A stretch of DNA of 64,000 bases from Actinoplanes missouriensis 431. GTDB lineage: Bacteria; Actinomycetota; Actinomycetes; Mycobacteriales; Micromonosporaceae. Positions 60,487-64,000 of this stretch are shown here, in pieces (the stretch's first letter is position 1; every line of letters begins with the position of its first letter). The position numbers were made by a program, and so were the translations under genes. The notes under the pieces are model-generated. The model did no database searches, was not told the origin of the DNA, and worked only from the letters and a program-made list of their open reading frames with translations. The stretch lies in contig NC_017093.1 of the NCBI RefSeq assembly GCF_000284295.1, positions 1,798,001-1,862,000 on the forward strand, given 5' to 3'.

Positions 60487-60687
60487 TGCAAGCTCCTCGG
60501 GTGGGGTGTTGTACGCCCTCGGTGTTCCCGCCTGATCGCCGTTCCCAAACCGGTTCAGTACGGGATCACGGGCGCCACTACAGCATGACTCTGCTCCGCC
60601 ACTCTCCGAAACGCACACAGTGGGCGATCCGGGTCCGCCGCGCCGTCGTTGACTGGCCGCGGGCCCGGACACGATCGGAGGCGGCCG

Positions 60688-61152
60688 GTGCGACTCGGCG
60701 AGGTGCTCGACGTCATCGAACGGCTGCTGACCGGGAGTGGTCACCCGGAGATCGCGGCGGTCACCCGGTACGGCGCCGACGCGGTGGCCGGCGGACCGTC
60801 CCCGGCGGGCGTCCGGGTGCGGTACACGAGCGGCGCGGAAGCGTACCTGTGGGGTGCGATCTGGCCGGGGGAGAACGTCCTGCCGACGCCGGACGTGCTG
60901 CCGTGGCCGGCCCGCGCGGACCGGATCGCGGTGTTCACCGCCCGGTTGCTGGACGCGGCCCGGCCCGCGGCGCTGAGCGAGTGGCACGTGGTGGCGCTGG
61001 ACGGTCTCGGCCCGCCGGACGCGCGGGGCAAGGCGCCCCGGGGGCTGCGGATCGTGGCGGCCGACGGCACCTCGGTGCTGTTGCGGGCCACCGCCGCGGG
61101 GGCGCCCATGCCGGAGCCGGCCGAGGATCCGTACCCGGACTGGACGGTCTAG
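60688..61152 (+). CDS. Conserved hypothetical protein
   Basis: This 154-aa soluble protein with a helical start (GEVLDVIERLLTGSG) and several beta-strand-like segments has no recognised domain. The GTG at 60688 follows GGAGG at good spacing. The last 4 bp overlap the end of the convergent sigma-fusion gene. The 201-bp space before it, shared with divergent glsB, holds no clear promoter that I can support. Confidence 0.65.
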   Translation: MRLGEVLDVIERLLTGSGHPEIAAVTRYGADAVAGGPSPAGVRVRYTSGAEAYLWGAIWPGENVLPTPDVLPWPARADRIAVFTARLLDAARPAALSEWHVVALDGLGPPDARGKAPRGLRIVAADGTSVLLRATAAGAPMPEPAEDPYPDWTV

Positions 61153-63266
61153 GAGCCGGACATCGAGGCGCCCTTGCCGTTTCCGGTCACCAGGTAGTCG
61201 GTGGCGGGCAGGCCGCCGGAGCTCGTCCGTGCGCCGTCGGTGCCGCCCGGGTCGGTGGACTCGAACGAGGTGCCCGGCTCCTGCCAGCTGTTGCCGTCCG
61301 CCTTGGCCCCCGAGGACAGCGAGACCTCGCCCTGATCGTTCTCCGCCGCCACGTTGCGCCGCAGCACGGCCGGCGCGGTGGTCATCGCGAAACCGAGCCC
61401 GGTGTTGCGGAACGCGGTGTTGTTGCTCAGCTCGATCGCCGCGACGCTGCCCTCGTCGACGAAGCCGTGACCGTTGTTGCCCCAGGACGCGCTGTGCCGG
61501 ACCCGGTGCGCGCCGGTGGCGGCAGGGCTGCCGCCGCCGAGCGCGAAGCCGTTCGCGCCGTTCCCGAACGACCAGGTGTACTCGACGCCGACCGCGCCGT
61601 TGAAGGCGCCCAGGTTGACGCCGTCGCCGCCGTTGGCGAACGCCCGGTTGCCGCGCAGCAGGTTGCCGCCGCCGTCGCCGAACTGGACGGCCAGGCCGGA
61701 ACCCCGGTTGTCGTAGAAGTCGCTGTCCAGCACCTGGTTGTCCCTCGTGCCGGCGTCGCGCAGCATCAGCCCGGCGCTCCCGCTGCCGTGGATCACGAGA
61801 CGCTGGAAGACCCCACCGACACAGGAGCGGCAGACGTACGCCTGATCGGGCGCCCCGGAGATCTCCAGGTCCCGGACCGTCCAGTAGGACGCCTCCTGGG
61901 TGATCGCCCACTTGCCGGCCGGGATCGCGGACGCGTCGATCACCGGCCGCTCGCCGCGGTAGCCGGTGAGCGTGACCCGCTGCGCGGCAGTACCGCTCGT
62001 AGTAATCGTTATCGGACTCGTCAGCCGGTACGTGCCGCCCCGCAACGCGATCGTCTGCCCCGGCTTCACCACCGCGACCGCCTTGCCGATCGTCGCGAAC
62101 GGACGACCGATGCTGCCGTCACCGCCGTCGTCGCCGCCCGGTGCCACGTAGATGTCGGCCCGGGTGGCGGCCGGCGGGTTCGCCTTCGCCGAGGACGAGG
62201 CGGACGGCGCGGCGGAGGCACTCGGGCTCGCCGCCGCGGACGGCCGGACCGTGACCGGGACCTGCGCCGACGGGGCGGACGGGGGCGGCGCGACCGCCAC
62301 CGGGGCGTCCGGCTCGGCCGGCTCGTGCAGGACCGCGTAGGCGAAGCCGCCACCGGCCGCCACGGTCACCGCGGTCGCGATCACCAGGGCCTTCTGCTGC
62401 ACCAGCGCGGTGACGTTCGCGACCATGCTGAGCGCGGCCGGCTGGACCGCGGCGCCCCCGCCGTGCAGGGCGCCCTGGACCGCCGCGGTGAGGGCGGCCG
62501 GCACCGGCAGCAGCGTGACACCGAGCAGCAGACGCTCCGGCGAGACCATGCCGGCCTGGTGGACGTGGCACTTCGGGCAGTCGCGCACGTGCCGGGCCAG
62601 GCGTTTGCGCCACAGCGAGCCGGTGCTGCCGTCCCAGAACCGGATGGTGTCCGCCAGCTCCGGGCACATCGGACGGGCTCGCAACGCGCGGACCACGCCG
62701 CGGGCCAGGTCGAGCTGCGTCTTCATCCGCTGCACCCGGACCGCGGCGTGTTTCGGCTTCACCGCGAGCGCGGCGGCCAGCTCGGCGCGGCTCAGATCGC
62801 CCCGGGCCTCCTGCCACCAGAGCGCGAGCAGCTCCCGGTCGCTCTCCTCGAGCCAGCGGCCGGCCTCGGCGAGCTCCCGGCGCTGGTCGGCGACGACCAG
62901 CTCGGCGGTGGTCCGCTCGGCGAAGTCGCCGAGCGGGTCGGGCACGTCGACCGGCTCTGTGTGGCGGCGGGCCAGGGTCATCTTCCGGGTGCGCAGATAC
63001 ATCTGGACCCGGCGGTACGCGATGGCGATCAACCATGATCGAAAACGGTCAGGATCGCGGAGGGAGCGCAGACTGCGAATGGCCTGGAGCATGGTGTCCT
63101 GCACCAGGTCGTCGACGTCCGGGTGCCCGTTCAGCGCGCGGCCGATGATGTTGTAGATCAGCGGCAGGTGCCCGGTGATCAACTGGTCGAGGGCGCCGAC
63201 GCTGCCGCCCTGCGCGGCGCGGACCAGATCACTGTCGGGCGCGGTCGCAATCTGACTCTCCGTCAC
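61149..63266 (-). CDS. ECF sigma factor fused to zinc finger, membrane helix and outside beta-helix domain
   Basis: This 705-aa protein has sigma region 2 (18-95, with DVDDLVQDTMLQAIRSL) and region 4 (about 130-190, LSRAELAAALAVKPKHAAVRVQRMK). An anti-sigma-type zinc finger H226-x3-C230-x2-C233 follows, then one membrane helix (about 293-312) and an Ala/Ser/Pro linker. Last is a right-handed parallel beta-helix (from about 385, with RGGTYRLTSPITI and repeated Asn-Gly-rich turns) of the pectate-lyase-like kind. Sigma, anti-sigma-like and sensor parts are thus in one chain. The GTG at 63266 was taken; a GTG at 63308 is possible. Confidence 0.87.
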   Translation of the reverse strand: MTESQIATAPDSDLVRAAQGGSVGALDQLITGHLPLIYNIIGRALNGHPDVDDLVQDTMLQAIRSLRSLRDPDRFRSWLIAIAYRRVQMYLRTRKMTLARRHTEPVDVPDPLGDFAERTTAELVVADQRRELAEAGRWLEESDRELLALWWQEARGDLSRAELAAALAVKPKHAAVRVQRMKTQLDLARGVVRALRARPMCPELADTIRFWDGSTGSLWRKRLARHVRDCPKCHVHQAGMVSPERLLLGVTLLPVPAALTAAVQGALHGGGAAVQPAALSMVANVTALVQQKALVIATAVTVAAGGGFAYAVLHEPAEPDAPVAVAPPPSAPSAQVPVTVRPSAAASPSASAAPSASSSAKANPPAATRADIYVAPGGDDGGDGSIGRPFATIGKAVAVVKPGQTIALRGGTYRLTSPITITTSGTAAQRVTLTGYRGERPVIDASAIPAGKWAITQEASYWTVRDLEISGAPDQAYVCRSCVGGVFQRLVIHGSGSAGLMLRDAGTRDNQVLDSDFYDNRGSGLAVQFGDGGGNLLRGNRAFANGGDGVNLGAFNGAVGVEYTWSFGNGANGFALGGGSPAATGAHRVRHSASWGNNGHGFVDEGSVAAIELSNNTAFRNTGLGFAMTTAPAVLRRNVAAENDQGEVSLSSGAKADGNSWQEPGTSFESTDPGGTDGARTSSGGLPATDYLVTGNGKGASMSGS

Positions 63267-63467
63267 GATCCGCTCTTCTCTGCTGGTCCCCGGCCTCGGT
63301 GTGGTCACACGCTGTTACATCGCTCGATCGAGCCGTATCGTGGCACAGGATTTCCGGCGCTGTAAAGTTCGCTTTTCCGGGAAAACCGTTATCCCGCAGG
63401 TCGTCCCGCATCTACGACGATGTGAGCGTTCCCAGTTGTTGTCGTACCCCCGGCATAGGCTGCGGTC

Positions 63468-64000
63468 GTGAGGGGCGAGCCGAGCATCCTGCACGTCGAC
63501 CTGGACGCGATGTTCGCCGCCGTCGAGCAGCGCGACAAGGTGTCGCTGCGGGGCAGACCCGTGGTCGTCGGCGGCGTGGCGGGCCGAGGCGTGGTGTCCA
63601 CCGCGTCCTACGAGGCACGGGCCTTCGGCGTGCGTTCGGCCATGCCGATGGCGCAGGCCAGGAGACGCTGCCCACCGGGTACGGCGTACCTGTCACCCCG
63701 CTTCGCGGCCTACAAGCGGACCAGCCAGGTGGTGATGGCGTTGCTCGCTGAGGTGACACCGCTGGTCGAGCAGGTGAGCATCGACGAGGCGTACCTCGAT
63801 CTCACCGCCGGCGACCACGACCTGACGCCCCATGGGGTCACCGAGCTGGGGCTCCGCCTCAAACGTGACATCGCGGACGCCACCGGCGGCGTCACCGGCT
63901 CGATCGGCGCCGCCTCCTCCAAGCTGCTCGCCAAGATCGGCTCCGAGCTGCGCAAACCCGACGGCCTGACGGTGGTCACGCCCGGCGAGGAGCTCACGGT
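63468..64000 (+). CDS. dinB: DNA polymerase IV (Y family), cut by the window end
   Basis: The frame runs from GTG at 63468 to the last base and gives 177 residues. The N-terminal catalytic motif HVDLDAMFAAVEQ, VSTASYEARAFGVRSAM in the finger region and VSIDEAYLD with the catalytic acidic pair identify a Y-family lesion-bypass polymerase. TAGGCT at 63456-63461 lies 6 bp before the start and no Shine-Dalgarno sequence is present, so the message may be leaderless. No recognisable SOS box is seen. Confidence 0.93.
   Translation, partial: MRGEPSILHVDLDAMFAAVEQRDKVSLRGRPVVVGGVAGRGVVSTASYEARAFGVRSAMPMAQARRRCPPGTAYLSPRFAAYKRTSQVVMALLAEVTPLVEQVSIDEAYLDLTAGDHDLTPHGVTELGLRLKRDIADATGGVTGSIGAASSKLLAKIGSELRKPDGLTVVTPGEELT

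Follow-up and report, generated by a model that had tools for sequence, protein, structure and literature searches.

What does a sigma factor sense when its own chain continues through a zinc module and a membrane segment into an extracellular beta-helix, and which genes would it switch on? One gene in the 64,000-nt stretch of DNA from the soil actinobacterium Actinoplanes missouriensis 431 analysed here (the window) raises this question.

Results

One open reading frame encodes sigma, zinc, membrane and beta-helix modules

The frame at 61149-63266 (minus strand) contains no internal stop and starts with a GTG at 63266, with an alternative upstream GTG at 63308, 14 codons earlier. It forms a single 705-aa ORF, confirming the proposal of an earlier note, made from this sequence alone, that a sigma factor, a zinc module, a membrane pass and a beta-helix are joined in one chain. 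The order of the modules is ECF sigma-2/sigma-4, HxxxCxxC zinc module, membrane segment, Pro/Ser/Ala linker and right-handed beta-helix:

61149..63266, minus strand: fused gene, 705 aa plus stop (open frame; full-length relatives)
63337..63366, minus strand: candidate -35/-10 boxes of the fused gene, TTTACA ... CACGAT (pattern shared by 9 of 20 relatives inspected)
62970..63236, minus strand: sigma region 2, residues 11-99 (Pfam Sigma70_r2 29-95; AlphaFold helices)
62679..62927, minus strand: sigma region 4, residues 114-196 (NCBIfam sigma70-ECF match up to residue 185; AlphaFold helices)
62556..62666, minus strand: zinc anti-sigma-like module, residues 201-237, HxxxCxxC at 226-233 (conserved motif)
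62325..62390, minus strand: likely membrane segment, residues 293-314 (hydropathy)
62166..62312, minus strand: Pro/Ala/Ser-rich linker, residues 319-367 (sequence; low pLDDT)
61152..62162, minus strand: beta-helix, putative receptor domain (PL9 fold without Lys273), residues 369-705 (1ru4 and 5olr matches; active-site residues)

Pfam detected Sigma70_r2 (29-95), Pel9A-like_beta_helix (365-425) and Beta_helix (458-617) in the fused protein, with no match for sigma-4 or the zinc module (zf-HC2 not detected), and NCBIfam added sigma70-ECF (TIGR02937, 25-185) above its cut-off and pectate lyase PelN (366-692) under its cut-off. Sigma70_r2, TIGR02937 and the helices of the structural model together give the composition of an ECF sigma factor, sigma-2 and sigma-4 with no sigma-3. 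The HxxxCxxC module that had been noticed in the chain is kept in 45 of 45 aligned fused proteins, and C201, H226, C230 and C233 are invariant across 64 family members. As for the membrane pass, the hydrophobic segment is indeed present (293-314, hydropathy 1.83) and is the likely pass, but a single crossing is not proven, because residues 245-264 are nearly as hydrophobic (1.79), giving one or two hydrophobic segments.

An AlphaFold model built on a 64-row alignment (64 of 70 listed family proteins, with L206, L213 and L218 left out) had a mean pLDDT of 83.9 and a pTM of 0.55. Ten-residue blocks exceeded 90 for residues 11-90 and 131-240, helices of the zinc module spanned 202-237, and residues 250-361 (membrane segment and linker) were mostly below 50; the sigma part was poor with a 7-row alignment and good with the 64-row one. 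An AlphaFold model of the beta-helix had been proposed as a check, and this domain came out as a confident beta-helix, most blocks scoring 95-98. Foldseek listed AlgU (8z6g) and sigma-E (6jbq) for the fused-protein model, with low TM.

At its 3’ end, the fused gene overlaps by 4 bases, tail to tail, with a gene for a 167-aa protein (60649-61152, plus strand), which had no Pfam match; several Actinoplanes have similar genes close to their fused gene.

The fusion is conserved in related genomes

Within the genus, 7 of 12 genomes (A. missouriensis included) and 6 of 15 additional ones carry a full-length one-chain copy, compared with none of 8 genomes of the order that belong to other families. 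The best 80 of the 157 loci in a GTDB scan included 44 full-length relatives, distributed over Actinoplanes, Paractinoplanes, Amorphoplanes, Symbioplanes, Winogradskya, Virgisporangium, Dactylosporangium, Micromonospora, Rugosimonospora, Hamadaea, Catellatospora and one MAG. Of these, 42 are clean one-chain ORFs; in L206 the chain is divided between two ORFs, the L218 sequence contains Ns, and L213 duplicates L212 (one strain). Since full-length one-chain copies occur across genus genomes and GTDB loci, the fusion is neither chance nor an assembly artefact. The earlier note had named a frameshift joining two separate genes, or a lack of fused homologues in related genomes, as grounds for abandoning the fusion; the one-chain relatives in so many genomes rule out the first, including mis-joined genes, and dispose of the second. 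Further fusions with the same beta-helix receptor occur in Paractinoplanes (L221) and Kitasatospora (L222, L251); these three and L220 were treated separately from the 44-locus set.

The beta-helix has the fold of a PL9 lyase and, in most fused proteins, has lost Lys273

The description of the outside domain as a pectate-lyase-like beta-helix holds: its closest solved relative by sequence is the pectate lyase Pel9A (1ru4, E 9e-19), with which the model aligns at Z 42.4 and rmsd 2.3 over 333 residues. By fold, Pel9A ties as nearest with the rhamnogalacturonan lyase 5olr (Z 42.7, rmsd 1.8 over 330 residues); the VIA-align rows behind these comparisons cover at least one fifth of residues 368-704, the sigma part being barely tested there. 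The PL9 fold, a right-handed beta-helix, is shared with both enzymes along the entire domain, whereas the fused protein lacks the catalytic lysine and three of the four calcium-binding aspartates.

We take the active site of Pel9A to consist of the catalytic Lys273 and the calcium-binding Asp209/233/234/237, a numbering that fits the spacing in the 1ru4 alignment. At these positions the window protein reads S-G-D-N-A against D-D-D-D-K (Asp209 to Ser, Asp233 to Gly, Asp237 to Asn, Lys273 to Ala), and the loop preceding Lys273 is absent. We followed the five residues in 45 fused proteins, 43 of them scorable (L206 and L218 unscored), and in 8 secreted homologues. Lys273 is lost in 39 of the 43, replaced by Ala (18), Val (13), Thr (3), Asn (2), His, Ser or Leu (1 each), while all 8 secreted homologues keep D-D-D-D-K; the A. 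missouriensis genome itself also encodes a secreted PL9 (L004) with all five residues. By these residues the beta-helix of the window protein most likely binds instead of cutting, and it looks like a lyase turned receptor; an active enzyme in this species is unlikely, four of the five active-site residues having been replaced.

The outside domain could instead be a working lyase that produces its own signal. All five residues are kept in 4 of the 43 scorable fused proteins, namely L211 from Hamadaea, L212 and L213 from one Catellatospora strain and L217 from another Catellatospora, and a GH128-type paralogue in the A. missouriensis genome keeps, by eye, NEP and TEFG motifs that are presumably catalytic. 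Against these stand the four substitutions and the missing pre-Lys273 loop of the window protein, and we consider such an enzyme-sensor highly implausible here. As an observation on the four Hamadaea and Catellatospora fusions themselves, their residues suggest that the sigma factor may there carry a working lyase.

Paralogues carry other outside domains on the same core

Two paralogues in the A. missouriensis genome have the same sigma core and other outside domains, Glyco_hydro_cc (GH128-type) and AbfB; Lcl_C, DUF4185 and another beta-helix also occurred among the 19 paralogues scanned. In a Micromonosporaceae MAG the same sigma core is fused to a PL1-type pectate lyase domain, with no PL9 (L220, 822-2963), and relatives of the sigma core in Streptomyces and Kitasatospora (L223, L225, L228, L229) end, by eye, in a CAP/SCP-like extracellular domain. 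In a tree of the sigma part (82 rows, L206, L213, L218 and the paralogue L032 left out), receptor type mostly tracks descent, with 10 changes against 35.7 in shuffled data, and 40 of the 44 PL9 rows together with the PL1 row form one supported group. The tree draws the Hamadaea/Catellatospora PL9 lineage apart. We did not retain a separate capture of PL9 by this lineage, a single origin not being rejected (p-AU 0.2, in a test that omitted L215 and kept the PL1 fusion L220 in).

Some 3 kb separate the AbfB-type fused sigma of A. missouriensis and a gene for a GH11 xylanase (L048, 9683-11254 and 14274-15299), a hint that other receptor types of fused sigmas may also sit near matching enzymes.

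Pectinase genes lie near the fused gene

Among the first 7 loci, 5 have a gene for a secreted ricin-lectin pectinesterase divergent from the sigma gene and followed by a pectate lyase gene. Of the 44 loci, 29 have pectinesterase and/or PL1 genes within the fetched flanks (up to 6 kb per side), with these genes on the divergent side in 24, and the L221 and L251 loci likewise have such neighbours. As a yardstick, the 8.77-Mb A. missouriensis genome has 2 matches to pectinesterase and 8 to PL1, from which we estimate a chance of about 2% that a random 14-kb stretch holds at least one. In the window and in several Actinoplanes relatives, the divergent gene encodes DNA polymerase IV and no pectinase. 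Three features of the window lie on this side of the fused gene:

63388..63415, plus strand: ECF-promoter-like motif GTTATC-N14-GCATCTAC, pointing away from the sigma gene
63421..63434, plus strand: imperfect CebR-box-like palindrome (12 of 14 positions by eye)
63468-64000, divergent from the fused gene: DNA polymerase IV gene

A promoter-like motif lies at many fused loci and before distant pectinase operons

From the upstream DNA of seven loci we derived a motif, GTTRTC-N14/15-GCATCTAC, which is read away from the sigma gene; both boxes were present, at constant spacing, in six of the seven. A loose form, GTTRT-N15-18-RTCTAC, which was widened after some further loci had been viewed, occurs upstream of the sigma gene and pointing away from it in 33 of 44 loci, compared with 0 of 44 in the opposite direction and 0 of 2200 simple shuffles; the Hamadaea and Catellatospora version of its second box is CGTCTAC. 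The motif is missing upstream in 11 of the 44 loci, including that of the closest relative (L176), which counts against reading the fused protein as a pectin receptor.

Across the A. missouriensis genome the exact motif has one match, 31 nt before the GTG of a ricin-pectinesterase gene that is directly followed by a ricin-PL1 gene, and a relaxed pattern has only two, the sigma locus and this pectinesterase-PL1 operon. With a loosened pattern, no similar motif was found in the 17.5 and 18.8 kb stretches around the GH128-type and AbfB paralogues. In 60 genus genomes the exact motif matched 50 times, compared with 5 for a reversed-pattern control. Of the 50 matches, 39 precede pectin or rhamnogalacturonan enzymes, at least 11 of these 39 being sigma loci themselves, matched by sequence or position: G001, G002, G003 and G009, which were used to derive the motif, and G022, G024, G042, G046, G047, G048 and G067. 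The genes downstream of the 50 matches encode pectinesterases (25), PL1 (2), PL11 rhamnogalacturonan lyases (8), GH43 arabinanases (2), a GH54 arabinofuranosidase, a GDSL esterase with a weak pectin-acetylesterase match, DNA polymerase IV (at a sigma locus) and 10 others, a classification made by Pfam on 9 proteins and by BLAST against those 9 for the rest. Gene context and promoter-like sites support the earlier suggestion that the outside domain may sense a polysaccharide, and point more narrowly to pectin.

The motif is kept beside DNA polymerase IV in the window and in several Actinoplanes, where it may be a relic, a promoter of the polymerase IV gene or a site of autoregulation.

Sites like TGGGAGCGCTCCCA, given in passages of PMC5332605 as the CebR box of Streptomyces scabies, are present in 16 of 44 upstream regions of the fused gene. 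From these sequences, dual control by the CebR-box-like site and the motif is possible.

Motif and fused gene co-occur across genomes

The status of the fused gene was determined for 27 genus genomes, 13 with the full-length gene and 14 without. The relaxed pattern gives pectin-linked sites in 12 of the 13 fused-positive genomes and in 1 of the 14 fused-negative ones (one-sided Fisher p 9e-6, ignoring shared ancestry), and the exact pattern in 11 of 13 and 1 of 14 (p 6e-5, again ignoring shared ancestry). One genome (G034) has the fused gene and no pectin-linked site, and another (G028) has a site and no full-length fused gene. Among the genomes scored as negative, G011 has a relaxed match at a contig end that could not be classed (L282), and G021 has two short pieces, maybe of a decayed copy. 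Counted by pectinase locus, the motif stands at 8 of 46 in fused-positive genomes and at 0 of 14 in fused-negative ones, which is not significant (p 0.18; 30 pectinesterase and 30 PL1 loci, among the matches listed); most pectinase loci of fused-positive genomes, among the matches listed, lack the motif.

G028 also contains what appears to be a remnant of the fused gene, a 266-aa beta-helix ORF alone (L265, 1498-2298).

Motif and fused gene might co-occur through a shared pectin-degrading lifestyle, the motif being read by another sigma factor or activator and the fused sigma having other targets. The genome-level association ignores ancestry and the locus-level one falls short of significance; G028 has a site with no full-length fused gene, and L176 a fused gene with no motif upstream, all as this explanation would allow. 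However, the motif lies within the fused gene’s own intergenic region in 33 of 44 loci, none of 14 pectinase loci examined in five genomes without the fused gene has it, and paralogous fused sigmas occur in both fused-positive and fused-negative genomes, with and without the motif. We regard this explanation as unlikely.

Relation to known one-chain and two-protein systems

That large C-terminal extensions are known in ECF groups, as had been noted, is borne out for ECF52/53 in excerpts of PMC5826349 and PMC8999054. According to passages of PMC5826349, PMC8999054 and PMC10766802, ECF52 (SCO4117 of Streptomyces coelicolor), ECF53 and ECF48 likewise combine, in one chain, a sigma factor, a zinc finger, a membrane region (likely in the window protein), a proline-rich stretch and a carbohydrate-related outside domain. 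Fused ECF sigmas with carbohydrate domains are thus in print, with signal, targets and proteolytic step of the ECF52/53 types described as predicted or unclear in passages of PMC8999054 and PMC10766802. SCO4117 has a carbohydrate-binding module (smart00776), its deletion affects differentiation, and proteolytic release has been proposed for it (excerpts of PMC5826349). The window protein has a zinc finger after sigma-4 and a proline-rich linker (319-367) as in ECF52, but instead of a C-terminal module as in SCO4117 Pfam gives a Pel9A-like beta-helix. Where SCO4117 has a developmental role and a carbohydrate-binding module, the fused gene here has a dead PL9 lyase and pectinase neighbours.

The module order and the differentiation phenotype of SCO4117 (passages of PMC5826349) would also suit a sigma of the ECF52/53 type that has its role in development or at the cell envelope and whose beta-helix binds a glycan of the cell’s own envelope. 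The pectinase neighbours, the pectin-linked sites and the pectin/RG-I lyase fold speak against such a role, which we find quite improbable.

As described in parts of PMC4711584, sigma-I3 of Clostridium thermocellum drives pl11 and ce12 while RsgI3 binds pectin; in excerpts of that paper and of PMC6056542, RsgI6 carries a GH10 domain with very low activity and retained binding. Going by these sources, SigI3/RsgI3, and SigI11 of Pseudobacteroides cellulosolvens, resemble the fused protein in placing a sigma factor under an outside pectin-binding module (putative here) with pectinase targets (predicted here), and by this analogy sigma-I3/RsgI3 is the nearest working analogue of the fused sigma. 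SigI and RsgI are two separate proteins, in contrast to the one open frame here; sigma-I has no normal sigma-4 (passages of PMC6056542), and the RsgI3 receptor is a PA14 pair and no lyase. IutY of Pseudomonas putida (ECF243) also carries sigma and membrane anti-sigma parts in one chain and is freed by Prc/RseP, as stated in part of a review (PMC8999054), but it serves iron-siderophore signalling and not polysaccharide sensing.

We found no published fusion of an ECF sigma with a pectate lyase or a beta-helix, and no published promoter or regulon of a sigma with a pectate-lyase receptor, in a search that ran without the main ECF classification papers, so that absence in print is unproven. Fused ECF52/53 sigmas and the two-protein SigI/RsgI systems were known already, and the fused protein is a variant of these; the lost catalytic residues, the paralogues with other receptor domains and the likely target genes go beyond the earlier note.

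Discussion

We judge it probable that the fused protein is a pectin receptor and a sigma factor in one chain, with pectinesterase-PL1 operons as its predicted targets, because of its pectin/RG-I-lyase-like beta-helix, the loss of Lys273, the pectinase neighbours, the distribution of the motif, its co-occurrence with the fused gene and the RsgI3 analogy. Against this reading stand the locus-level link, which is not significant (p 0.18), the genome-level test, which ignores shared ancestry, the fused gene of G034 with no pectin-linked site in its genome, the motif beside DNA polymerase IV in the window, the derivation of the motif from some of the same loci, and the four fused proteins with a complete active site.

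In the mechanism that we propose, the zinc module would hold the sigma domains inactive at the membrane while the dead lyase domain outside would bind homogalacturonan or rhamnogalacturonan I. Glycan binding would then trigger cleavage within the linker or the membrane segment, or else alter the zinc module, and either event would free the sigma domains. The freed sigma is predicted to direct RNA polymerase to GTTRTC-N14/15-GCATCTAC promoters before pectinesterase-PL1 operons, in A. missouriensis the operon starting at chromosome position 1,110,109; the predicted targets in relatives also include rhamnogalacturonan lyase, arabinanase and related genes.

A broader reading, which we hold to be evenly poised, is that a membrane sigma factor captured a pectate lyase, which became a dead-enzyme receptor and so made a single-protein pectin switch, within a family that carries PL9, PL1, GH128-type, AbfB, CAP/SCP-like and Lcl_C receptors on one sigma/zinc/membrane core. 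In this reading, wherever a CebR-box-like site lies beside the motif, the operon would depend on both pectin and cellulose-breakdown signals.

If the pectin-receptor reading is true, this single gene would serve as a pectin biosensor for which receptor fold, promoter sequence and target genes are proposed, and the signal, targets and proteolytic step of the fused ECF52/53-type sigmas would become directly testable here. Together, the fusions with intact residues (Hamadaea, Catellatospora) and the dead ones (Actinoplanes and others) would allow the study of an enzyme becoming a receptor.
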